Part shown: positions 2,112 to 23,368 of the stretch, in pieces | How positions within the stretch are numbered: the stretch's first letter is position 1 | Layout of the letters: each line of letters begins with the position of its first letter | IMG/VR virus record: IMGVR_UViG_3300006102_000009 | Location: 1 to 23,368 of that record | Length of the DNA stretch: 23,368 nucleotides | Source: a virus | Strand: one strand, 5' to 3' | Notes under the pieces: generated by a model | What the model was told of the DNA's origin: nothing | The model's database searches: none | Seen by the model: only the letters and a program-made list of their open reading frames with translations | Made by a program: the position numbers and the translations under genes

Positions 2112-2959
2112 GTGAGATCGTCGTCCTCGCATCCGACCATAATGCAGTGGCCTTGAAGGACCGGCTTCGCGCCGCGCTGTTGGAGGACGGATATTGGGCG
2201 ATCGACATCGGGCCCTATTCGAACCGCCCGGCGGTGGATTACACGGACTACGCCCGGCAAGCCGCGATGATCGTGGCGCGCGGGGACGCCTCCAAGGCGA
2301 TACTTTGTTGCGGGACTGGGATTGGCATGAGCGTTGTGGCGAACAAGACGGCGCCGAATGTCCGGGCGGCGCTGGTCCACAACGACGTGACGGCGCGGCT
2401 TTCGAGGGAGCACAACGATAGCAACGTCCTCGCGCTGGGCGCATGGATCCGCTCGGACGAGGAGAACGTCGCCGCCGCGCGTGTGTGGTTAACGGAGGGG
2501 TTCGGGGAACTGAGGCACGTGCGCCGGGTCGAGAAGATCGCGCCCGAGCCGCGCTCCAAGATTGTCTTCACCAACGGGGTGTTTGATATCGTCCATCAGG
2601 GGCACCTCACGCTTCTTAAATGGGCCGCCTCGCTAGGCGAGCGGCTGGTTGTGGGGGTGAACTCGGATACCTCGACACGGCTTCTCAAGGGCCCGGCGCG
2701 CCCCATTAATAAGGAGGCTGACCGCAAGGCGGTGCTCGAGGCCCTGCGGTTTGTCGACGAGGTGATCATCTTCAATGAGATCAGCGCGCGGAGTTTGATT
2801 GCCGAGATACGTCCGTCGATCGTGGTCAAGGGCGGGGAGTGGCTGGCGGAGGAGGTCCGGGCAAGGGACCTAATTCCGGACGATATCGAGGTCAAGGTGT
2901 TCCCGGTGGTCCAGGGGTATTCGACGACGCGGATCGTCGAGCTTGCGAAGGGGCCTTGA
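2108..2959 (+). CDS. RpiB-type sugar-phosphate isomerase fused to HldE/RfaE-type nucleotidyltransferase
   Basis: This 283-residue protein is a two-domain fusion. Residues 1-140 match the RpiB/LacAB isomerase family: ASDHNAVALK (8-17), VDYTDYA (43-49), the CGTGIGMS loop (68-75) with the catalytic-type Cys68, and TARLSREHNDSNVLALG (95-111). Residues 150-283 match the cytidylyltransferase-like C-terminal domain of HldE (RfaE domain II): FTNGVFDIVHQGH with HxGH at 163-166, VGVNSDTST, LKGPARPIN, VVKGGEW and the terminal GYSTTRIV. RpiB enzymes interconvert aldose and ketose phosphates. HldE-C activates heptose 1-phosphate with ATP. The fusion suggests isomerisation and activation of related sugars. 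The substrate is unknown, and a kinase step and usually a phosphatase step would lie between the two reactions. GTG 2108 overlaps the previous stop. Confidence 0.9.
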   Translation: MSEIVVLASDHNAVALKDRLRAALLEDGYWAIDIGPYSNRPAVDYTDYARQAAMIVARGDASKAILCCGTGIGMSVVANKTAPNVRAALVHNDVTARLSREHNDSNVLALGAWIRSDEENVAAARVWLTEGFGELRHVRRVEKIAPEPRSKIVFTNGVFDIVHQGHLTLLKWAASLGERLVVGVNSDTSTRLLKGPARPINKEADRKAVLEALRFVDEVIIFNEISARSLIAEIRPSIVVKGGEWLAEEVRARDLIPDDIEVKVFPVVQGYSTTRIVELAKGP

Positions 2960-3654
2960 TGAGTTCCGTCGCCGGCCATCTCGTTCGCATTTACCAGATG
3001 ATGGCGACCGAGCTTCTGAATACGTGGTCGTCGGGGAATGTGTCGATCCGGGACGCCGATGCCGATAGCATCTATATAAAGCCGTCTGGTGTTCTCCCTG
3101 GCGCTCTGCAAGCCAATGACGTTTCCCGGCTCTGGCTCCATAATGGGGTTTGGTTCGGTCTGAAGCCCTCCACCGACACGGCGGACCATCTTTATCTCTA
3201 CCGCAAGTTTCCAAAGCTGACGTCAATCATTCATACGCATTCACCCTATGCGACGGCGTTCGCGGCCGCCGGGCGCGGGATACCATGCTCGCTGACGGCG
3301 ATCGCGGACGAGTTCGGGGGCGGCATTCCTTGCGCGCCGTTCGCCCGGATCGGGGGCGAGGAGATCGGCAAGTCGGTCGCGCGCTGGGTCGAGGGCGGTT
3401 ATCCTGCGGTTCTTCTCGAGCAGCACGGGGTCATGACCTTCGGATATGAGGCGGACCCGCTGGCATCCTCGCTGGCAGCTTTGAAGCGCGCCGTGATGCT
3501 GGAGGACTGCGCCAAGACCGTATGGCTAGCGCAAACCCTTTCTGGTACAACCATGCTTCGATCCTTGCCCCAGGCCGAGATCGATGCGGCGCATGAGCGG
3601 TATCGGACGAGCTACGGGCAGGGAGGGACGGACGCAGCCAAAAAGGTGAGCTAA
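2959..3654 (+). CDS. AraD-like class II aldolase/epimerase
   Basis: At 231 residues this matches the class II aldolase/adducin fold, closest in pattern to L-ribulose-5-phosphate 4-epimerase. Visible motifs are TWSSGNVSIRD (22-32), KPSGV (41-45), STDTADHLYLYRKFP (71-85, Asp73) and IIHTHS (zinc-type His92 and His94). ADEFGGGIPC follows, with Asp117 where the AraD catalytic Asp lies, then LEQHG (His156) and a near-terminal SYGQ like the AraD YYGQ end. AraD interconverts L-ribulose 5-phosphate and D-xylulose 5-phosphate, and relatives split fuculose or rhamnulose 1-phosphate. The Asp and Tyr favour an epimerase, but an aldolase role is possible. ATG 2959 shares a base with the fusion gene's stop (TGATG). 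The longer frame from 2839 is rejected. Confidence 0.85.
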   Translation: MSSVAGHLVRIYQMMATELLNTWSSGNVSIRDADADSIYIKPSGVLPGALQANDVSRLWLHNGVWFGLKPSTDTADHLYLYRKFPKLTSIIHTHSPYATAFAAAGRGIPCSLTAIADEFGGGIPCAPFARIGGEEIGKSVARWVEGGYPAVLLEQHGVMTFGYEADPLASSLAALKRAVMLEDCAKTVWLAQTLSGTTMLRSLPQAEIDAAHERYRTSYGQGGTDAAKKVS

Positions 3655-7096: not shown

Positions 7097-8653
7097 ATGG
7101 GATATCGGCCTCGACCCAGGGTAGGACCAGCCGGACCAGCCGGACCAGCCGGAACATTCAATGGGATGCTGTCAGTCGAATCTTACGGTCTCATAGCAGA
7201 TGGTTCATCTCATCCGTTAAGCTCAATGTATGGCTCTCTTGCAGCGGCGCAGGCTGTCTATCCTTTCGCTACGGCACTGACGCAAGAAATAGATTTTTGC
7301 GCTTGTAAGGCGGCGTCCAATGCAGCGTTTGGAGCAGATGGAGTTGAGCACGGATCGTCCTCTTATCTGAACAAAAAACTATTCTTGCCAAATGGCCGAT
7401 ATCAGTTTGGCAACGATACGTGGCTCATTCGCAACTTAGTTTCCGGCGTGATCGAGGGTGCCGGAATGCTCGCCACAACTATTTATGGCAACGTTACTTC
7501 GCTCGCATTTGATGGGCTGTGGTATTCGGAGCTGGCAAACTTTTCTATCGAGTTGCAGCAATCGAACGCAACTGTTGCCCTGGATGTCGATGGAAATGTA
7601 CCGGGACATCCATATTCAACGCGAGGTGTGCAAGGGAACAATTTACGAAATCTTTTGGTCAACGGTGGTGGATCGACCTACGCTGTTGCACTTACCAGAC
7701 AGGGTGGAAGCAGCGCGCAAGGATCAGAATGTGTCTATACGAATCTGCATCTGGCTAACGCCTCATACGCTTGTTATTACCAAAACGGCTTCAACAATGT
7801 CGCCAATACATTTTATGGCGGTGACATCCAGAACTACCCGATGCATGGTGTTTATGCTGTTGGTGGGACCGTGCATGTCATCGCAACTAGCTTTGAGTCA
7901 ACGACTGGATATACGCAGATTCTCAATGATGGATACGACATCAGGGTCGGCGATGCTGGATCGTACAATTTCTGTCTCATTCATGGCTCAAGAACCGAAT
8001 CTATGAGGTTCCTTTATGCAGGTGCCGGGACTCTTGTCGATGTAAGAGGCATCAGCAGTAACAATGCTACTAGTGGGTGGGCTGCGGGCACTTCGTACCC
8101 ACTTCATTCTGGCATTGTGGAGGGGGCGAGCCTTTTTTCCCTTCGCTTATTTGTCGCGACTACCGGGGGAACCTCTGGAGGTTCAAAACCTAACTTTCCT
8201 GCTGTCGCTACAGGCGGGACGGTTTCTGACAACGGCATTGTGTGGACAGAAACAGAATTCAATTTCATGAACGTGGCAACCGGAAGTGTTGATCGTGAAT
8301 CGGTTCATATTCTTGGTCCTGGAAATCTGAAAATTCCAGAAAGATACGTGACGTTTACCTCTGACTCGACAGCTGCGGACGTTTATTTAGACGACAGTAC
8401 AGAGTTCGCCGCTATTGATACGACAAACGGACACAGGGATGTCTATCTTCCGGTGCATGTGGAGGATGGCAGAAAAATAACAATTAAGAAAACAGACACA
8501 AGCGCAAATACCGTGCTTGTCCGGAGTTTGAACTACACCATCGAAAGTGGTACTACCGTCATACCAGGTGGGGCTTTAGGATCGGTAACTTTTCAGCTGC
8601 TTGAACCAAACCTTGCTTCAAATCCTTATTGGTTGTTGGTTGGCAAGATCTGA
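7097..8653 (+). CDS. tail spike with collagen-like N-terminal linker and beta-helix body (518 aa)
   Basis: The first residues carry GPAGPAGPAG (10-19), a collagen-like triplet often found near the N-terminus of trimeric spikes. A SVESYGLIADG stretch follows that resembles the start of pectate-lyase-type spike domains. A long strand-ladder body contains LFLPNGRYQFG, GVIEGAGMLATTIYG and NLRNLLVNGGG, and a compact C-terminal domain ends YWLLVGKI. This layout fits a receptor-binding spike that may depolymerise a surface glycan. Catalytic residues cannot be assigned by eye. The gene is relatively AT-rich. Its stop shares a base with the next ATG. Confidence 0.8.
   Translation: MGYRPRPRVGPAGPAGPAGTFNGMLSVESYGLIADGSSHPLSSMYGSLAAAQAVYPFATALTQEIDFCACKAASNAAFGADGVEHGSSSYLNKKLFLPNGRYQFGNDTWLIRNLVSGVIEGAGMLATTIYGNVTSLAFDGLWYSELANFSIELQQSNATVALDVDGNVPGHPYSTRGVQGNNLRNLLVNGGGSTYAVALTRQGGSSAQGSECVYTNLHLANASYACYYQNGFNNVANTFYGGDIQNYPMHGVYAVGGTVHVIATSFESTTGYTQILNDGYDIRVGDAGSYNFCLIHGSRTESMRFLYAGAGTLVDVRGISSNNATSGWAAGTSYPLHSGIVEGASLFSLRLFVATTGGTSGGSKPNFPAVATGGTVSDNGIVWTETEFNFMNVATGSVDRESVHILGPGNLKIPERYVTFTSDSTAADVYLDDSTEFAAIDTTNGHRDVYLPVHVEDGRKITIKKTDTSANTVLVRSLNYTIESGTTVIPGGALGSVTFQLLEPNLASNPYWLLVGKI
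7124..7153 (+). repeat. three 9-bp tandem repeats (GGACCAGCC) encoding collagen-like Gly-Pro-Ala
   Basis: GGACCAGCC occurs three times in a row, followed by GGA, in the frame of the spike gene. The exact repetition at the nucleotide level means the array could expand or contract by slippage in 9-bp steps without breaking the frame. Confidence 0.9.
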
Positions 8654-9806: not shown

Positions 9807-10673
9807 ATGACAGCACTGACCGATCGCCTGCGGGATTACTTCGCCTCGCAGAAGATCCTTCTGATCGGCGATACCATCCTTGACGTACAGACCTTCGTGG
9901 AGCCGATCAAACCGGCTGAAGGATCTCCGTTGACACCCAATTATTGTGTCGTGCATGAAGCGCGGTCGCTGGGCGGCGCGGGGCTAGTTTACCGAAACCT
10001 CGTCGCGCTCGGAAACCTTCCGACCTTCTACAACGATAGCGTCGGCTGGACTGGAGCGGGCGAGCCGACGACGAAAAAGCAGCGTATTTGGTGCGATGGC
10101 AAGAAGATCCTCCAACTCGACACCTTCGGGCCGGGAATCGAGGAGCCGATCTGGGAAGAATACCTCGACGAAGGCATCTCGCAAGCCGACAAGGTTGTGG
10201 TAGCCGATTACCGCCATGGCCTTCTGACGCCGGAACGGATCGCGGATATCGTGGGATATTGCCAGCACTTCGACAAGCCGCTCTATGTCGCCTCTCAGGT
10301 CAGCCAGAGCGTCAGCAATCATATTCTCTATCGATCGGACAAAACGATCTTTGTTCTGAACGAGACGGAAGCGGGCGCTACTGGACCTTTACCAGAGAAG
10401 CATGTTGTCACGCTCGGTGCACGCGGTTGCTTCTTTAGATCAAAGTTAGAGGGGTGCAGTCAGATGCACTATGAGATGCGCGGCATCACGGTCGATTGTG
10501 TCGACTCGACCGGAGCGGGCGACGCCTTCCTCGCCGCGTTTTGCCTCATGTCGCTTGACGATCCTTCCCTCGCGCTGCGCGTTGCAAACACTTGGGCTGG
10601 CCTTTCTACCAAGAACATCGGCGCTGACCCGCCGAACCCCGACGAATTCTGGAAAATGCTGGAGGCGTGGTGA
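9807..10673 (+). CDS. PfkB-family sugar kinase, HldE N-terminal-like
   Basis: At 288 residues this is a ribokinase-fold kinase. It shows ILLIGDTILDVQTFV (17-31), SLGGAGLVYRNLVALG (54-69), TKKQRIW...LQLDTF (89-107), VVADYRHGLLTPER (131-144), LNETE (184-188), VTLGARG (201-207) and CVDSTGAGDAFLAAF (231-245) with the catalytic base Asp239. The KQRIW/LQLD and ADYRHGLLT spans closely follow the heptose-7-phosphate kinase half of HldE, with a different sugar pocket possible. In E. coli HldE this half is joined to the nucleotidyltransferase; here that partner sits in the fusion gene at 2108. A 66-base gap precedes it, with no clear promoter. It overlaps the cupin gene as TGATG. Confidence 0.87.
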   Translation: MTALTDRLRDYFASQKILLIGDTILDVQTFVEPIKPAEGSPLTPNYCVVHEARSLGGAGLVYRNLVALGNLPTFYNDSVGWTGAGEPTTKKQRIWCDGKKILQLDTFGPGIEEPIWEEYLDEGISQADKVVVADYRHGLLTPERIADIVGYCQHFDKPLYVASQVSQSVSNHILYRSDKTIFVLNETEAGATGPLPEKHVVTLGARGCFFRSKLEGCSQMHYEMRGITVDCVDSTGAGDAFLAAFCLMSLDDPSLALRVANTWAGLSTKNIGADPPNPDEFWKMLEAW

Positions 10674-11041: not shown

Positions 11042-11682
11042 GAATTTTTATCGACTCGGCAAACATCGAAACCATTCGCTCAGCCATCACACGAGGGTTG
11101 GTGAGCGGCTGCACGATCAATCCGAGCTTACTTGCCAAAGAACCGAAGACAACCGCCATCGGCCATGTCGTCGCGCTTTTAGAAGCTGTTCCGACGCTGG
11201 AAGAACTTCACATCCAGGTGCCAACGGCGCTCGAATTCATGGCGTTGCGCAAAGAGATCAAATCCCTTCGTCACCACATCATCGCCAAGGCCCCGGTCAA
11301 CCGGCCGCAGCTTCTGAAGGACATGCTTGTGACGAGATGTCCGGTGAACGCTACCTGCGTCTTTACTGAGGCGCAGGCGATCGCAGCCGCTGCGATGGGT
11401 GCTCGCTTTGTCTCCTTCTTCTGGGGCCGGATGCTCGATGCGAAGCTGGATCCCGCTAACGTGGTCAAGCGCACACGGGCTGTTTTTGAAAGACAGGGCA
11501 TAAGAACTTCAATTGTCGCCGGGTCTCTCAGGAATCCCGAAGCTGTAGTCCGCGCCTTCGACAGCGGCGCCGACATCGCCACCACATCGCTCAGCGTGAT
11601 CGAGAAGATGTTCGAGGATGAGGACTCGGAAAAGTCGCTCAAGGGATTCGAGGACGATTACGCGGCGTGGATGTCGCAATGA
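11038..11682 (+). CDS. transaldolase / fructose-6-phosphate aldolase family (TalC-like)
   Basis: This 214-residue protein has the short-transaldolase length and pattern: MRIFIDSANIETIRSAI (Asp6), GLVSGCTINPSLLAKE, HHIIAKAPVN with the likely Schiff-base Lys, then NATCVFTEAQAIAAAAMGA, RFVSFFWGRMLDA, SIVAGSLRNPEAVVRA and GADIATTSLSVIEK. Members transfer dihydroxyacetone units or cleave fructose 6-phosphate. Cyanophages carry TalC as an auxiliary metabolic gene. INPS replaces the more usual TNPS, and APVN the usual IP-T segment, so substrate preference may differ. In this cluster it could supply or consume sedoheptulose-type sugars (inference). The start is TTG 11038 in a TTGA overlap with the cupin stop. 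The stop forms ATGA with the next gene. Confidence 0.88.
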   Translation: MRIFIDSANIETIRSAITRGLVSGCTINPSLLAKEPKTTAIGHVVALLEAVPTLEELHIQVPTALEFMALRKEIKSLRHHIIAKAPVNRPQLLKDMLVTRCPVNATCVFTEAQAIAAAAMGARFVSFFWGRMLDAKLDPANVVKRTRAVFERQGIRTSIVAGSLRNPEAVVRAFDSGADIATTSLSVIEKMFEDEDSEKSLKGFEDDYAAWMSQ

Positions 11683-13058
11683 ACGCCCCGGAAACGATGC
11701 TTGATCAGGCGTCTCCAGGGGCGGAGTTCTTCACCCTCGCCCTGACCGCCATCGAACTCAAGAATGCCGACAGCGCCTATCAATACCTCGTCGCTTGCCT
11801 CAAGGCCGACCAGCAGCACGCAGGCGCATGGTTTCACCTCTCGGATATCCTGTTCAACTCCAAGAAGCACGATGCCGCACTGCACGCTATTCGGCGGGCT
11901 TACCAGCTCCATCCAGGCGATCCCAGGGTGATGACCAATCTCGGCTGGTATTCCCATGTTGTCGGTGACAACGACACGGCCATGGCGTGCCTGAAGCGGG
12001 TTGTCGAACTCGCCCCCGAACTCCCCTTGGGATGGTCCAATCTCTCGCAGGTCGAAATCACCATGGGAGACCTCAAGGAAGGCTTACGGCACGCCCAGCG
12101 CGGCGTCGACCTGGGGCTCGGGGAGCCCCGGTTCTCGATGTGTCTGGCGTTCGCGCACCTCTACAACGGCAATCTGAGGGAGGGCCTTGAGCACTACCGG
12201 GCCCGCTTTCCCTTCAAGCTCCCCATGCTGCAGAACTATCCCTATCCCACCTGGAAGGGCGAGCACGTCGGGACGCTGTTTATCCAGGCCGAACAAGGTA
12301 TTGGCGATACGATCTCGATGCTGCGGTTCATCCCCGAAGCCGCGCGCCGGGTCGATCGGGTGATGTTCTTCACGAACCGGGAACTATTCTCGCTGTGTCA
12401 GGATTGGTTACCCGAAAATGTCACAGTGTTCCCCATCCCTCAGCATCTCCCGAAGGCCGATGCCTGGACGGCGATGATGTCCCTACCCCTCTCGCTTGGG
12501 CTCGAGCACAGCGATCTTGAGCGTTTTAGCGCGCCGTATATCTCGGGCTATTACAACGGGGATGGATATCCGGAGAAACCCTACAAGGTGAACCCCGCCC
12601 TCAAGCGGGTCGCCATGTGCTGGTCCGGCAGCGGAGCTAACGATCTCGACTATTGGCGCTCCATGCCCCTCAAGGACATGATGGCGCTGACCCATCTTCC
12701 GAACACCACTCTCCACGCCGTTCAGGTGGGCCCGCGCGCCGCCGATATCACGGAATTGGGCCTGCACGGCATTGTCGAGGACATGACCCCCTGGATCAGC
12801 GATATGCGGGACACCGTGAGGATCCTTCAGGGGATGGACCTGACGGTCACCGTCGACACGTCCGTCGCTCACCTCGCCGGCGCCATGGGGATACCCGCCA
12901 TCGTCATCCGAAACCGGCGCGCGGGGGATTGGCGCTGGAGCTTCGGGCAGAACAAATTCTGGTATCCCAAAATTCATCACATTGAACGGCAATGGAATGA
13001 ATCGTGGCCGGACGTCATGGAGCGGGCCGTGAGAAAGGCGGAGCAATGTCTCTTCTGA
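11679..13058 (+). CDS. TPR protein with GT9-like (heptosyltransferase-fold) glycosyltransferase domain (459 aa)
   Basis: Residues ~15-180 carry tetratricopeptide-like repeats (HAGAWFHLSDILFNSKKHDA, PRVMTNLGWYSHVVGDNDTA, LGWSNLSQVEITMGDLKEG). From ~190 the protein matches the C-terminal half of many TPR glycosyltransferases: YPTWKGEHVGTLFIQAEQGI, then GDTISMLRFIPEA, the core MCWSGSGANDLDYWRSMPLK and VTVDTSVAHLAGAMGIPAIV. The last segment fits the GT9/GT-B nucleotide-sugar site seen in ADP-heptose:LPS heptosyltransferases. The substrate is unknown. It directly follows the sugar genes in ATGA overlap and is followed by a methyltransferase-like gene. The likely roles are glycosylation of a virion or host-surface target. 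ATG 11679 is used rather than GTG 11667. Confidence 0.85.
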   Translation: MNAPETMLDQASPGAEFFTLALTAIELKNADSAYQYLVACLKADQQHAGAWFHLSDILFNSKKHDAALHAIRRAYQLHPGDPRVMTNLGWYSHVVGDNDTAMACLKRVVELAPELPLGWSNLSQVEITMGDLKEGLRHAQRGVDLGLGEPRFSMCLAFAHLYNGNLREGLEHYRARFPFKLPMLQNYPYPTWKGEHVGTLFIQAEQGIGDTISMLRFIPEAARRVDRVMFFTNRELFSLCQDWLPENVTVFPIPQHLPKADAWTAMMSLPLSLGLEHSDLERFSAPYISGYYNGDGYPEKPYKVNPALKRVAMCWSGSGANDLDYWRSMPLKDMMALTHLPNTTLHAVQVGPRAADITELGLHGIVEDMTPWISDMRDTVRILQGMDLTVTVDTSVAHLAGAMGIPAIVIRNRRAGDWRWSFGQNKFWYPKIHHIERQWNESWPDVMERAVRKAEQCLF

Positions 13059-18063: not shown

Positions 18064-18551
18064 AAATACGCGCTCCAGATTTCACGGCTAAAGAGCTAAA
18101 GCGGATTCTTAAGTACAATCCGAACACTGGAATATTTACGAGACTTCGATCTGGAAGGATCGCCGGCGGAACGGATACCGATACGAAGTATTGGAGGATA
18201 ATGATATCAGGTCGTTTGTATCACGCTCATCGCCTTGCTTGGTATTACATGACAGGAGAATGGCCACCATCGACGATTGATCACTAGGACAGAAATCGCA
18301 CGAACAACAAGTGGCGCAATCTTCGCCTTGCATCACTGAGCCAACAACAGGCGAACGCTCCATTAAGAAGAAATAACTCTTCAGGCTTCCGGGGTGTTCA
18401 TTTTGATGCGTCGCGCGGAAAGTGGGTAGCTGTTTTGTATTGTGGAAAACATCACCATCTTGGCAGATATGACAGCAAGCGCAGAGCTGCTGCTGCATAC
18501 AAGGAAAAATTTCAACAACTTCATGGACATTTTTTGTCCGGAGGGCATTGA
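18060..18551 (+). pseudogene. HNH endonuclease with AP2-type domain interrupted by an in-frame amber codon
   Basis: The frame encodes LKRILKYNPNTGIFTRLRSG, a GRLYHAHRLAWYYMTGEWPP segment, then STIDH followed by TAG (18285-18287). It continues with no other stop as DRNRTNNKWRNLRLASLSQQ, an AP2-like SGFRGVHFDASRGKWVAVLY and HHHLGRYDSKRRAAAAYKEK, ending at TGA 18549-18551. This is a complete ~163-residue phage HNH-AP2 homing-type nuclease except for the amber codon. The TGA shares a base with the terminase ATG (TGATG), preserving the neighbour arrangement. The 75-residue product before TAG would lose most of the HNH site and all of AP2. A recent nonsense mutation, amber read-through or a sequencing error could each explain this. 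Two other genes here end in TAG, which argues against a reassigned code. Confidence 0.88.
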
Positions 18552-20431
18552 TGGCCGCCTGGGACGACACGAAAGTAGAGACGTTCAAGGAAAATTTTTA
18601 TACCTTTCTCAACAGTTGCGTAGTCAACTCAAAGGAAAAAGGACGGATCACTCTCGGGGATAACATCTACTCAGCCCAACGTGTTTTTCTTGATTGCATA
18701 TTCAACGCGCTCAAGCGGGACGTTCACGATATTAAGGTTCTAAAAAGTCGCCAGCTTGGACTCTCAACGATTTCGCGAGCGCTGTCACTGTTCTGGCTCG
18801 GCGTCCACAATGGGCTTCGCGGCGCAATGGTTTTCGATACCGACGCCAACAAAGAGAATGCGAGAAAAGAGATAGAAGAGATGGTGCGCAATCTTCCAAA
18901 GCGCATGAAATTTCCTCGCATCAGTTCCTACAACCGATACGGGATTACGTTAGATAACGATTCCCAAATGCTTTTCATGTCTGCTGGCATTCGATCCAGC
19001 AAAGGATCTGGGCAACTCGGTCGATCAACTGGACTTAATTTTGTCCACGCATCCGAACTTTGTTCCTGGGAAGCGGAAGAGGGAATCGTTTCATTCAAAC
19101 AAGCACTTTCTGAAACGTTTCCAGACAGGTTATACATTTACGAAAGCACAGCGCGCGGCTTTAATTCCTGGCACACGATGTGGGAGGACGCCAAGAGCGA
19201 TGACCTGAATCAGGCGACGTGTTTTTTGGGGTGGTATCTCAAAGATAGCCAACGAATAGAGCGCGGAACTGAAATGTTCCGTCGCTACGGAAATGACGCA
19301 CCAAATGAGATCGAGCGTAAGAGAATCCAAGCAGTTAAAGAACAATACGGATTTGATGTCGATATCGAACAACTGGCTTGGTATAGGAGGAAAACCGACC
19401 CCGCCAGAGAGAAAGATCCCGGTGAGCCGACTGATGGATTTACTCAATCAGAACAACCATGGACCGAAGAAGAGAGTTGGGTTGCTACAGGCTCCACCTT
19501 CTTTCAAGCGGATAAGCTGACAGCACAAATTGTCGCCGCGTCGCAACTCAAGCATCAATCATACAAGTTCTATCCAGGAGCCGATTTTCCTCACAGCGAT
19601 TTCGAGGTCTCCAAGTATCGGCGCGACATTCATCTGAAAGTCTGGGAAGAACCGGATCCAAACGGCATGTACGTCGTTTCCGCCGATCCCGCATTCGGAC
19701 ACGATGAAAGAAATGACCGCTCTGCGTGCGAGGTGCTCCGCTGCTACGCGGATGGCTGTGACCAAGTGGCGGAGTATGCTTCTGCGTCAATCCCGGCGCA
19801 TCAATTCGCGTGGCTGATTGCAGCGCTTTGCGGCTGGTATCACAATGTTCTCTTCATTCTTGAGATCAATGGGCCCGGCGAAGCGGTGTGGAACGAATAC
19901 CGATCTCTCCCAAAACTCTTGCAGGGTTACCAGAGCGGCGTTGCGCAAGAACATGGTCTGAACAACATCCTTGGGAACGTGCGGAATTATGTCTACCAGC
20001 GCGCCGATTCGATGGGGGTTGGTGCTTCATGGCAATTTAAGACTCAGACTTCCCTCAAGGTCTCGATCATGGAGAGGTTACGGGACTTCGTGAGTACCGG
20101 AGCTTTCAAAATCCGCTCGGTCGATGCCCTAGAAGAGATGCGGACGGTGACCCGAGATGGCGACAGCATCAAGGCCGAAGGGTACAACAAGCGAGATGAT
20201 CGAGTGATGGCGCTCGCCATGGGCGGTCGCGCATGGGAAGAGAAATTGCGCCCCATGCTGATCGCCCAAAACCGCACAAGACAGGCCGAAGTCGCCAGAA
20301 AACAGCTATCCGCCCGTGGCCGGTACGAGCTTTTCACCAAGAACACTTTGGAGAGCTTTCTCAAGCAGAAAGAAGCGCGTAGGATCATGCAGGAAATCAG
20401 AGAACGGCGTGCTTCGTGGAGGGGGCGCTGA
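18551..20431 (+). CDS. terL: terminase large subunit
   Basis: This 626-residue protein has the N-terminal packaging ATPase and C-terminal RNase-H-type nuclease of large terminases. The ATPase motif appears as VLKSRQLGLST (residues 63-73, a Walker-A-like element). LNFVHASEL lies in the Walker-B region, and the coupling-type motif YESTARG follows. The nuclease acidic sites fit SADPAFGHDE, ILEINGPGEAVWNEY and DDRVMALAMG. It cuts concatemeric DNA and drives packaging into the procapsid, using the portal encoded downstream. ATG 18551 overlaps the HNH stop as TGATG; the TTG at 18548 is rejected. The stop overlaps the next ATG (TGATG). No small-subunit gene is recognised in the window. Confidence 0.93.
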   Translation: MAAWDDTKVETFKENFYTFLNSCVVNSKEKGRITLGDNIYSAQRVFLDCIFNALKRDVHDIKVLKSRQLGLSTISRALSLFWLGVHNGLRGAMVFDTDANKENARKEIEEMVRNLPKRMKFPRISSYNRYGITLDNDSQMLFMSAGIRSSKGSGQLGRSTGLNFVHASELCSWEAEEGIVSFKQALSETFPDRLYIYESTARGFNSWHTMWEDAKSDDLNQATCFLGWYLKDSQRIERGTEMFRRYGNDAPNEIERKRIQAVKEQYGFDVDIEQLAWYRRKTDPAREKDPGEPTDGFTQSEQPWTEEESWVATGSTFFQADKLTAQIVAASQLKHQSYKFYPGADFPHSDFEVSKYRRDIHLKVWEEPDPNGMYVVSADPAFGHDERNDRSACEVLRCYADGCDQVAEYASASIPAHQFAWLIAALCGWYHNVLFILEINGPGEAVWNEYRSLPKLLQGYQSGVAQEHGLNNILGNVRNYVYQRADSMGVGASWQFKTQTSLKVSIMERLRDFVSTGAFKIRSVDALEEMRTVTRDGDSIKAEGYNKRDDRVMALAMGGRAWEEKLRPMLIAQNRTRQAEVARKQLSARGRYELFTKNTLESFLKQKEARRIMQEIRERRASWRGR

Positions 20432-21003
20432 TGGCGTTCAAAAGCCGAAGGTATAAATGTCCGGAATGCAGCGGAGAATTTTCGTTTCTGCATGAGATTA
20501 TTAACGGCGTCGAGGAAGACCCTCCGTCTCACTGCCCAAGGTGCGGCTGTTACGTCGGAACCGAACCGCAGGCGTTGCCATCCAACTTCAGCATTTCGTC
20601 CTCTAAAGGGAAGAACCCCGACATTCTCTATAGGGAAATGGAGAGTTCATCCGCCGATCGCGCGCAGCAAGCGGCCGATCTTGCGGGCGTGCCCGTTTCC
20701 GAGATGGCATCGTTAAAAATCACGAATATGAAAGACAACATGCGCGAGGGCGATATCGCCGCCATTGTGCCGCCGCAGCCCTCTCAGGCTTACGTCCAGG
20801 CGACAAGGCAAACGAACAGCGCGCCAGCGTTCCAAGCCAATGGCGCGGAGTATGCCCGAGGGACGATCATCAATGGCTCTGCGATTGGGACCATGGTCGG
20901 GCCCAGCGCTGGTCATCACGGCGAGTCCATGCGTGAGCGCGTGACCAATTTCCACAAGAGCCTTGTGCCGGTCCAGCGGCGAGTTCAAAACAGAGCCACC
21001 TGA
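20431..21003 (+). CDS. zinc-ribbon protein between terminase and portal (190 aa)
   Basis: The N-terminus has two CxxC knuckles, KCPECSGEF and HCPRCGCYV, enough for one zinc ribbon within the first 45 residues. The rest is polar and probably partly disordered (SNFSISSSKGKNPDILYREM, QTNSAPAFQANGAEYARGTI, VTNFHKSLVPVQRRVQ). It sits in TGATG overlap with both terminase and portal genes. A packaging or assembly accessory is possible but not shown by the sequence. Confidence 0.7.
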   Translation: MAFKSRRYKCPECSGEFSFLHEIINGVEEDPPSHCPRCGCYVGTEPQALPSNFSISSSKGKNPDILYREMESSSADRAQQAADLAGVPVSEMASLKITNMKDNMREGDIAAIVPPQPSQAYVQATRQTNSAPAFQANGAEYARGTIINGSAIGTMVGPSAGHHGESMRERVTNFHKSLVPVQRRVQNRAT

Positions 21004-22682
21004 TGCGTCTCCCAGACGACACCAAGAAGCTGACGAGCCAAGCCACCGACATCGTGGAGATTTGCAGGACGTCGGTCGGTCAGCGCGCGACCGCGTACAA
21101 TTCCTATCGGCAATGGATTGAGAACGGGCGGGGCGCCGGAGGATTGGCGCTCGCCAACATGCTGTACGCGCATCTTGATCGACTGCAGTCGCATCTCTTC
21201 TCGCCCAGCCATTTGAGATTTTCGATCGATTTCGAGAATTTCTATCCGAAATTAACCCATAAGCAGGGCGAAGCCGTTGCCCGTCTTATCACCAGAGAGT
21301 GGGAGCGCAAGAGCATCGATCTTGTGTTCGGAGCCGGCGTTCGGCTCGGTTTGGATTACGGTTGTGGAATCGGAAAACTGCTGGTGACGCGGGGAGACGT
21401 GCCGCAATGTCATGCTCGTCTAGTCGCTCCATGGCAGTTCGGCGTCTACAACGAAGCGGTCGATTCCGTCGAAGACCAAGAAGCCTGCGTCGAAACGCTA
21501 TTCCTCAATCGGCATGAGGTCTGGCGCCGCGTCGCGCATCTTCCAGAAGCGGATAAACTCTACAAGCGCATTCTGGCGCATTCGAACAAAGGCGCGTCGG
21601 TGTCCACGCCACCGTCCTTCGCCCATCAGGTGTTGTCGACGGCGATTCTGGATACATCCCTTGCGAACGCGACTAGACCCATCCCCGGCGGCATCGTCCA
21701 GCTTTCCAATGATCCTTCGAACGTGACGCTCGGGCCCCAGATCGACGCCGAACTCTTCCCCATGCACGAGCTTTGGGTGAAGGACGACGAGCGGAACGAC
21801 TGGCTGACGATCCAGATTATCGAGCCCGACATCCTGGTCGCGCCCTTGCTGAAGCGCGTGAACCTGTTTTGCCCTGACACGCTGCCCTACACGAAAATCC
21901 AGCCTAACCACGTCGCGGGATATTTCTGGGGTCGTTCCGAAATCGTCGATCTGATCATGTTGCAGGATCTGTTGACGACGCACCTCGACGACGTCAAACG
22001 TCTTATGGGGCAACAATTCGACAAATTGCTGGCATTTTCCGGGTTCACGGGCCTCACGGATAAAGTCTACGGAGAATTCCGCGCGCAAGGTTTCCTGGCG
22101 ATGGAGCAAGGGGCCCAGGTCAATGATTTGACGCCGAAAATCCCAGAGTTCGCGCTGCCCTTCATCGCGCAAATCCTGCAACTGATGGACCGGGTCGCCG
22201 GATTCGACAACATTCTGTCAGGACGAGGCGAGCAGGGCGTCCGCGCCGGCTCGCACGCGGATAGCCTCCAGAGGATGGCGTCTCCGCGTCTCCGCGACCG
22301 CGCGCTATTGGTCGAGCGCCAATGCGCCGTCATGGGGGACAAGACACTCTCCGCATTCGAAGCCAAGGACGCACGCGCTTGGTTCCCCAACGAGAAGCAG
22401 GACGAGGTCGAAGCGTTCTTGATTTCGCAGCTTCCCGAGGATCGTCGACTTGTCGTGGATTCGCATTCGTCCTCGCCGATCTACGAAGAGAACCACCAGC
22501 AAATCGTGGCGTTCTTGCTCAAGGCCGGTGTGATCGATGGTGCGTCGGCGCTCGAGCTTCTGAACGTCCCGAACTTGGATGTTCTTTTGCAGCGTTTGGG
22601 GGAGCAACAGGCCGCCAAAGCGAAATTCTTGCAGGAGCATCCCGAATTGGCGATGCAAAAGGGCGGCAAGAAGGCGGCTTAA
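21003..22682 (+). CDS. portal / head-to-tail connector protein (559 aa)
   Basis: The length and order of the sequence fit phage portals: an N-terminal wing (ICRTSVGQRATAYNSYRQWI), beta-rich middle segments (FGVYNEAVDSVEDQEACVET, NHVAGYFWGRSEIVDLIMLQ), then the long stem/crown helices (DLLTTHLDDVKRLMGQQFDK, ALPFIAQILQLMDRVAGFDN with GRGEQGV) and a charged C-terminal helix. It directly follows the terminase and zinc-ribbon genes, as portals usually do. It forms the dodecameric ring through which DNA enters. The exact family is not assignable by eye. Its TAA stop overlaps the minus-strand neighbour's stop in the shared TTAA at 22679-22682. Confidence 0.82.
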   Translation: MRLPDDTKKLTSQATDIVEICRTSVGQRATAYNSYRQWIENGRGAGGLALANMLYAHLDRLQSHLFSPSHLRFSIDFENFYPKLTHKQGEAVARLITREWERKSIDLVFGAGVRLGLDYGCGIGKLLVTRGDVPQCHARLVAPWQFGVYNEAVDSVEDQEACVETLFLNRHEVWRRVAHLPEADKLYKRILAHSNKGASVSTPPSFAHQVLSTAILDTSLANATRPIPGGIVQLSNDPSNVTLGPQIDAELFPMHELWVKDDERNDWLTIQIIEPDILVAPLLKRVNLFCPDTLPYTKIQPNHVAGYFWGRSEIVDLIMLQDLLTTHLDDVKRLMGQQFDKLLAFSGFTGLTDKVYGEFRAQGFLAMEQGAQVNDLTPKIPEFALPFIAQILQLMDRVAGFDNILSGRGEQGVRAGSHADSLQRMASPRLRDRALLVERQCAVMGDKTLSAFEAKDARAWFPNEKQDEVEAFLISQLPEDRRLVVDSHSSSPIYEENHQQIVAFLLKAGVIDGASALELLNVPNLDVLLQRLGEQQAAKAKFLQEHPELAMQKGGKKAA

Positions 22683-22930
22683 TCGTTTAGCCGATCTTTG
22701 ATTTCATCCGCAAACGTTTCGAATGGAGTTGGGCTGAAAGACGCTGATCTAAAGGCGCCCTCAACAATTTCACACTTCGTTATCACATCGCTCAGCGATT
22801 TCCCGCTGCGAACGATTTTTCCTATATGCCCATAAGCTATTCGTAAAACCCGATACTTTTCGATATCAACCTTTGTGACAGGCCGATTGGAATCAATCGC
22901 GATATCGTACATTTCGAGTGGTTCAGTCAC
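22679..22930 (-). CDS. small hypothetical protein (83 aa)
   Basis: I start at GTG 22930, which overlaps the stop of the HTH gene upstream (GTGACTGA) and follows a GAGGA sequence. The frame extends to 22957, but that part overlaps the HTH gene. The protein, MTEPLEMYDIAIDSNRPVTK then YRVLRIAYGHIGKIVRSGKS, is mixed helix/strand with no recognised domain. Its tight coupling to the HTH gene suggests the two act together. The function is unknown. Confidence 0.6.
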   Translation of the reverse strand: MTEPLEMYDIAIDSNRPVTKVDIEKYRVLRIAYGHIGKIVRSGKSLSDVITKCEIVEGAFRSASFSPTPFETFADEIKDRLND

Positions 22931-23111
22931 GTTCCGTCCTCGCCAGCCACGTTTCAATCGACTCTTTCACGTACCGAATTCTCCCTCCGTGCCGGTAAAA
23001 TTTTGGTCCGGCTCCGGGCGTTTTCCGCAGACGAAAAAGAAACTCTTCTGAGAGTTCCAAAAGCTCGGCGACCTCCTTCGTCGTCAGGAATTTCTTCGTG
23101 TTCGATCGCAT
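22923..23111 (-). CDS. excisionase-like helix-turn-helix DNA-binding protein (62 aa)
   Basis: Residues ~8-30 have the winged-HTH/MerR-like recognition element FLTTKEVAELLELSEEFLFRLRK. A G-P-K-F-Y-R-H-G-G-R-I-R-Y wing and YVKESIETWLA follow, the pattern of HTH_17/AlpA-like excisionase or regulator proteins. It is the right length for that group. It probably binds DNA to regulate transcription or assist excision, but no integrase is in the window. GGGGAG precedes the start. Three 10-bp-spaced direct repeats lie 14-43 bases upstream and may be its binding sites. It overlaps the next gene by eight bases. Confidence 0.85.
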   Translation of the reverse strand: MRSNTKKFLTTKEVAELLELSEEFLFRLRKTPGAGPKFYRHGGRIRYVKESIETWLARTERD

Positions 23112-23124
23112 TGCTCCCCAACGC

Positions 23125-23154
23125 CAGACGACTACAGACGACGCCAGACGACAC
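23125..23154. repeat. three direct repeats CAGACGACnn at 10-bp spacing, probable operator/binding sites
   Basis: CAGACGAC begins at 23125, 23135 and 23145, an exact 10-bp period, just upstream of the minus-strand HTH gene. One DNA helical turn between copies places the same base face on the same side. Direct repeats of this kind are typical binding sites of excisionase-like and other small HTH proteins. The link is inferred from position. Confidence 0.6.
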
Positions 23155-23172
23155 TAGCAGGTTTTTGATGAA

Positions 23173-23313
23173 ATGGAACAGTTCTGCCAGCGCGCAAACT
23201 GCCCCGCATCGATCAACAGGGCTTCGCGCCTTCTGGCTCACGCTGCAAAAGAGTCCGGTCGGCGGTTGAAACGAGGAACATCCTGGGGTCGAAAAGCGTG
23301 GTTCCAACCATAG
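23173..23313 (+). CDS. possible small basic protein (46 aa)
   Basis: A short frame opens MEQFCQRANCPASINRASRL and becomes basic (AAKESGRRLKRGTSWGRKAW). Its TAG stop overlaps the next ORF's ribosome-binding sequence. It lies on the strand opposite the HTH gene, beyond the direct repeats, so a divergent promoter may serve it. The evidence is weak: there is no clear ribosome-binding site and no recognised domain. Confidence 0.3.
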   Translation: MEQFCQRANCPASINRASRLLAHAAKESGRRLKRGTSWGRKAWFQP

Positions 23314-23317
23314 GAGG
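23312..23317 (+). promoter_or_regulatory. AGGAGG ribosome-binding site before a tiny ORF
   Basis: A perfect AGGAGG lies five bases before ATG 23323, directly after the TAG of the preceding small frame. Its strength supports translation of the tiny ORF. Confidence 0.55.
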
Positions 23318-23322
23318 CTGTA

Positions 23323-23355
23323 ATGGCACGTCGTCGGAAGTCTCGCCGGAAGTAA
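23323..23355 (+). CDS. possible 10-residue arginine/lysine-rich peptide
   Basis: The frame encodes MARRRKSRRK and then stops at TAA. It has an ideal AGGAGG five bases upstream. A ten-residue, almost wholly basic peptide could bind nucleic acid or serve as a leader peptide. The length is too short for firm coding evidence. A 5-bp inverted repeat (CCGGA-AGTAA-TCCGG) spans the stop. Confidence 0.3.
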   Translation: MARRRKSRRK

Positions 23356-23368
23356 TCCGGAACTCATC

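Follow-up and report, generated by a model that had tools for sequence, protein, structure and literature searches.

The DNA analysed here (hereafter the window) makes up an entire IMG/VR record, 23,368 bases long, which is linear and probably a fragment. Toward its right end lie, in this order, a gene for the large terminase (18548-20431), a gene for a protein of 195 amino acids, the portal gene and, on the opposite strand, the gene for a small helix-turn-helix (HTH) protein, just upstream of which there is an array of three direct repeats (Table 1). The two phage records in which relatives of the portal gene are annotated as such come from Manatee Spring. Another locus (L064) was found through the terminase, with 100% identity, and its contig stops short of the HTH gene, 587 bases past the terminase gene.

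Table 1. Features of the repeat locus and its surroundings in the window.
Feature	Position	Strand	Remarks
Repeat copy 1, CAGACGAC	23125..23132	+	GTCGTCTG on the strand of the HTH gene; -21 to -14 from the HTH start codon
Repeat copy 2, CAGACGAC	23135..23142	+	10 bp from copy 1
Repeat copy 3, CAGACGAC	23145..23152	+	10 bp from copy 2
Shine-Dalgarno-like GGGGAG of the HTH gene	23114..23119	-	Between the repeats and the start codon; read from the sequence
Weak -10 candidate TAGTGT, preceded by TGC	23151..23156	-	Overlaps the outermost repeat; 6 of 12 matches; non-consensus
HTH_17 gene (62 amino acids)	22923..23111	-	Presumed binder of the repeats; assigned by Pfam, PHROG and predicted fold
Portal protein gene	21003..22682	+	Convergent with the HTH gene; relatives annotated as portal in MW202825 and MW202753
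Divergent micro-ORF, MARRRKSRRK	23323..23355	+	AGGAGG before it; falls in the Arg/Lys-rich series of 10-19 amino acids

The first-pass annotation had described three direct repeats, one helical turn apart, immediately upstream of the minus-strand HTH gene. Both parts of this description are correct: the copies that begin at 23125, 23135 and 23145 are exact octamers, and the ATG of the HTH gene lies at 23111, with 13 bases between it and the first copy, the array occupying positions -41 to -14 relative to the gene. The octamer core is identical in all three copies, the spacers between them are TA and then GC, and a 12-mer is common to copies 1 and 3 at a lag of 20; the two positions at which the copies differ, admittedly a small sample, are spacer bases of the middle copy. 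Whereas 0.85 copies of the octamer would be expected in the window, there are four, a count reached by 2 of 100 shuffles. The fourth copy, at 21013, is located within the portal gene, and copies spaced at 10 bp are found in the record only directly upstream of the HTH gene. Among 1000 order-2 Markov sequences as long as the window, none contained three copies of an octamer at a constant step of 9-33 bp, and the window contains one other such triple (at 7124, with a lag of 9, in sequence coding for Gly-Pro-Ala). Likewise, no equal-step octamer triple with a lag of 9-12 was found in 586,981 bases of 61 related loci. Since neither the simulated windows nor the related loci reach this pattern, the array is not an accident of composition.

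The array shows no codon periodicity, and the two longer open reading frames that cross it (23003-23269 on the plus strand and 22954-23367 on the minus strand) gave no tblastn match in the relatives. A promoter scan found none at the repeat site, the -10 candidate listed in Table 1 having the best promoter score of the region. Upstream of the HTH genes of the relatives and the window, a sigma-70-like promoter with at least 9 of 12 matches is present in 9 of 41 regions, while 2.24 would be expected, and the window is not one of the nine. A terminator scan of the site returned one terminator-like site, inside the HTH gene and below the shuffle mean plus one standard deviation, and an Rfam search of the window and seven relatives gave no match.

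The protein encoded next to the array matches Pfam HTH_17 with 33.3 bits (curated cut-off 27; E 6.1e-8) and PHROG 66, annotated as excisionase and transcriptional regulator (E 3.6e-7). In an AlphaFold model built with eight relatives (mean pLDDT 84), helices and wing take up residues 8-61 of the 62, so that the predicted protein consists of a winged HTH only, with no coiled coil or effector domain. The closest solved chain by profile is the excisionase RdfS (8dgl, E 1.9e-9), which is also the closest by fold (Z 8.8), followed by the GIsul2 excisionase (Z 8.4) and Pukovnik Xis (Z 7.6). BldC-DNA complexes rank high as well, and the DNA-binding domains of small terminases (7lw0, Z 7.6; gpNu1, Z 5.1) and MerR proteins come close behind. 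Middling Z scores are common for so small a fold, and therefore these matches place the protein in a class and not in a function. The model shows the small winged-HTH fold of recombination directionality factors, and the three octamers at 10 bp, as a presumed binding site of the protein, have the form of the operators of such factors, in which direct repeats recur at roughly one helical turn. Pukovnik Xis and Tn916 Xis (PDB 4j2n and 1y6u) share this fold class with the HTH protein, but they are tied to a tyrosine integrase, a link not seen in the window record. A search for close relatives of the HTH protein itself gave none in phage genomes, and of 30 pattern-matching stretches in viral contigs none was confirmed.

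The gene setting is much more widespread. Relatives of the portal protein were gathered by two scans of IMG/VR and one scan of genome contigs, several of the IMG/VR relatives coming from records of 59-67 kb. After discarding 16 shorter loci that had no HTH match, 107 loci remained, each with an HTH match or at least 700 bases after the portal gene. A minus-strand HTH gene lies within 2.5 kb of the portal gene in 93 of them and is missing there in 14; plus-strand matches numbered zero. The HTH family profile was built from the same loci in which it was counted, and for this reason an independent check with Pfam matters: HTH_17 alone matched once in each of 17 of 18 records (the window and 17 relatives of at least 59 kb). 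In one of these relatives (G023, the same as L102) the match sits farther from the portal gene, and the record without a match (G005, the same as L031) has an HTH gene according to the family profile. Exactly one HTH_17 match is thus found in 16 of the 17 large relatives, and therefore no competing protein of this family exists there. Phages of this clade, whose portal identity ranges over 40-58%, keep a lone reverse HTH_17 gene within the head gene cluster.

On the other side of the HTH gene, and divergent from it, these loci carry a very short open reading frame on the plus strand. Such an Arg/Lys-rich frame of 10-19 codons appears in 87 of the 88 HTH loci with at least 330 bases available, and in 39 of 40 non-redundant loci, compared with 92 of 1290 control windows. 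About half or more of its residues are Arg and Lys, it is usually preceded by a Shine-Dalgarno-like stretch, and its distance from the HTH start is 117-330 bases (median 159). The window was omitted from the 40-locus table and read apart, only 257 bases following its HTH start. The micro-ORF is present even at 26-30% portal identity, and 10 of the 14 loci with no HTH gene have one with a Shine-Dalgarno-like stretch (L068, L070, L071, L083 and L119-L124). In the Manatee Spring phages (MW202753 and MW202825) there are two micro-ORFs each, unannotated and lying under minus-strand "hypothetical" ORFs. Examples of its position in relatives are L009 (from 8056), L004 (from 8208), L126 (4758 and 4878) and L127 (7810 and 7929).

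The micro-ORF looks like a coding sequence. Over the 40 micro-ORFs, single-base codon differences were synonymous in 1729 cases and non-synonymous in 703, whereas the other two frames gave 198 versus 2283 and 553 versus 1947; these counts are pairwise and non-independent, and picking the ORFs by their Arg and Lys content favours synonymous change, but the contrast is still large. The product is possibly a packaged DNA-condensing peptide or an RNA-binding one. In L009, the ORFs that follow it presumably lead to the scaffold and capsid genes, and in MW202753 and MW202825 the major capsid gene comes after the micro-ORFs. A scan of IMG/VR with a strict fixed-spacing pattern for the micro-ORF gave no match, a result that is uninformative given that the spacing was probably too strict, and a literature search for Arg/Lys micro-peptides of this kind returned nothing relevant. 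This module of HTH gene and micro-peptide is the more surprising part of the surroundings of the repeats.

The repeats themselves do not accompany the module. For the conservation tests, 41 of 70 upstream regions were kept after removing similar ones, together with 74 non-redundant HTH proteins; start codons in the relatives were picked by rule, and some may be wrong. Lags were counted in up to 70 regions, and a soft three-copy score was computed on the 41, with shuffles and control periods. The perfect triple was found in the window and in none of the 40 other regions, and with the soft score at periods 9-12 only 3 of these 40 reached p 0.05 (median 0.54), as expected by chance. Exact lag-10 runs of six or more numbered 4 outside the window against 2.0 expected. 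Lag-20 runs numbered 6 against 1.6, but this enrichment was discarded, as it is a single value among 59 lags and the softer test gave 1 of 40 at p 0.05. No octamer triple was found in a scan of IMG/VR, where two copies at 10-bp spacing occur in 12 stretches, none of them beside an HTH gene of this phage family. In one of these stretches (L129, 180-197), two copies of GTCGTCTG spaced by 10 bp are followed, some 50 bp further on, by a gene for a protein with a winged HTH, which matches the HTH profile weakly and which we take to be a small terminase subunit of the lambda type. With no other perfect triple and soft scores at chance level, the array is private to the window record among the sequences available.

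Conservation of the repeats in relatives, on which the first-pass annotation had staked its proposal, was therefore not borne out, although the nearest relatives are distant: their portal proteins are at most 58% identical, and the HTH proteins of the eight compared are 25-40% identical. Because no relative above 58% portal identity spans the region, the lack of conservation weakens an operator function of the repeats and does not refute it, and, whichever reading holds, relatives this diverged would be expected to have a different operator sequence. The apparent loss of the repeat architecture in them is nevertheless a point against a mechanism common to the clade.

Several known systems resemble this locus in part. 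Well-studied directionality factors are described as sharing direct repeats one turn apart, weak binding to single sites and strong cooperativity (PMC7498355). The same paper describes the sites of Apl, from phage 186, as direct repeats with 10-11 bp spacing, found at attP and between pR and pL, both of which are repressed by Apl. Apl is thus a small phage DNA-binding protein with direct repeats about one turn apart, one set of them between promoters that it represses. However, it has five to seven sites of 6 bp, an attP set and an integrase, whereas the window has three copies of 8 bp and the record holds neither attP nor integrase. RdfS from ICEMlSym R7A forms filaments and binds and represses its own promoter (PMC11963761; 8dgl). 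Like the protein of the window it belongs to HTH_17, and it is the closest solved structure to that protein, but it differs by an extra N-terminal helix, a known role in excision and, as its authors report, the lack of a consensus motif that could be found. BldC from Streptomyces binds 9-bp direct repeats head to tail (PMC5859096). This regulator, like the HTH protein, is a short MerR-like winged HTH with no dimerisation domain and binds direct repeats near promoters (PDB 6ama and 6amk), although its 9-bp AATTXXXX(C) sites, as described there, contrast with the GC-rich octamer at 10 bp in the window.

According to these data, we consider it somewhat more probable than the opposite that the repeats are an autoregulatory operator of the adjacent HTH_17 protein. 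From the repeats, their position, the protein family, the predicted fold and the gene setting, we infer binding, cooperativity and repression as follows. One HTH monomer would sit on each octamer, and the 10-bp step would line the monomers up along one side of the helix, so that they would bind cooperatively in the manner reported for Apl, RdfS and BldC. Only 13 bp separate the array from the start codon, so that proteins bound to it would stop transcription of the HTH gene at initiation or in early elongation, which would amount to negative autoregulation, and they may also act on the divergent unit headed by the micro-ORF. Cooperative binding by the HTH protein itself, for autoregulation or for excision, had already been suggested at first pass. 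The autoregulatory half is plausible by class, given that the fold relatives (RdfS, Pukovnik Xis and BldC) belong to proteins that assemble head to tail along DNA, in several cases on direct repeats spaced by about one turn; the half concerning excision is not upheld. Judged by its anatomy, a layout with three identical octamers before a gene of this kind is what self-binding would look like. Three observations count against an operator: the arrangement is unseen in the relatives, the site has no consensus promoter, and none of the 12 two-copy stretches of IMG/VR adjoins an HTH gene of this phage family. In addition, a shared fold, here a predicted one, is no proof of self-binding, as MerR proteins share it too. 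Classical MerR proteins bind dyads.

Ranked after the operator, and unlikely, is the possibility that the repeats are a functionless 10-bp minisatellite produced by replication slippage. It would fit with the presence of the triple in the window record alone, and in none of the 40 other upstream regions, the 586,981 bases of relatives or IMG/VR; the two copy differences, however, both fall in the middle spacer and none in the 8-base core (a small sample), and the array sits exactly in the promoter-proximal stretch of a gene whose product belongs to a class of repeat-binding proteins. It is more doubtful still that the array serves as operator for a different phage or host protein, controlling either the HTH gene or the head genes that diverge from it. 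The link between HTH protein and repeats is putative, and response regulators also use phased direct repeats (PMC5859096), but the adjacent gene, being of the right class, offers a simpler candidate, and the record is a fragment from which the other regulators of the phage cannot be listed.

The two remaining explanations are both very improbable. One of them regards the repeats as a packaging site (cosB or pac) and the HTH protein as the small terminase subunit, in keeping with the resemblance of its winged HTH to small terminase DNA-binding domains and with the one of the 12 two-copy stretches (that of L129) that precedes a small-terminase-like gene, which is treated as an anecdote. Small terminase subunits are made up of a DNA-binding domain followed by a part for oligomerisation and binding to the large subunit. 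The winged HTH, in contrast, fills the whole of the 62-residue protein, leaving no such part; moreover, the HTH gene is antisense to the packaging genes, and the 14 loci mentioned above have no HTH match near the portal gene. The other explanation takes the repeats as an excision or attachment-site arm and the HTH protein as a recombination directionality factor, which would agree with the type of protein, the spacing of the repeats and the tyrosine integrase (PF00589) found over the cut-off in 4 of the 17 relatives of at least 59 kb. Nevertheless, the window record, itself a fragment, has no such integrase, and the HTH gene is present in 17 of the 17 relatives, including the 13 with no integrase over the cut-off; the occurrence of the gene therefore does not track that of the integrase. 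In the one relative whose coordinates were compared (G001, the same as L009), the two genes are about 39 kb apart. The recombinases with PF00239 found in 13 of 21 relatives are of the small serine type, with open frames of 196-292 amino acids apart from one partial match, and PF07508 gave partial matches only, within frames of 236-253 amino acids. Regulation is thus a better guess than excision for the role of the HTH gene, as far as gene content indicates. Small serine recombinases occur in G005, G006, G009 and G018, among others, and in L031 the gene is found on the terminase side of the portal gene, some 5 kb ahead of it.

A broader proposal, combining operator and module, is also unlikely as a whole. 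It holds that the repeats would be the form taken, in one lineage, by a rapidly evolving operator that belongs to a conserved switch, in which the lone reverse HTH_17 regulator between the portal and head genes of a large clade would control both itself and a divergent late unit starting with the Arg/Lys peptide of 10-19 residues, the operator changing with the recognition helix while the module stays. Should the HTH protein bind the repeats, the locus would show in compact, testable form how helically phased sites bring about cooperative repression, in a clade represented almost entirely by metagenomic sequences, and an HTH_17 gene that would otherwise be labelled an excisionase would gain a function. 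The module, with its HTH gene facing away from the gene of a tiny basic peptide, may point to an undescribed control or assembly step in the interval between portal and capsid genes.

Two further features of the window concern its tail-side genes. At the start of a tail-type protein, a perfect 9-bp tandem repeat (7124-7153, plus strand) encodes a collagen-like Gly-Pro-Ala stretch. Sugar-metabolism genes (2108-2959, 2839-3654, 9807-10673 and 11667-13058, all on the plus strand) are also found among the tail-side genes, and comprise a LacAB_rpiB and CTP_transf_like fusion (isomerase-nucleotidyltransferase), a class II aldolase, a PfkB kinase and a TPR protein with a weak heptosyltransferase match, a content that suggests phage-borne synthesis of heptose or glycans.
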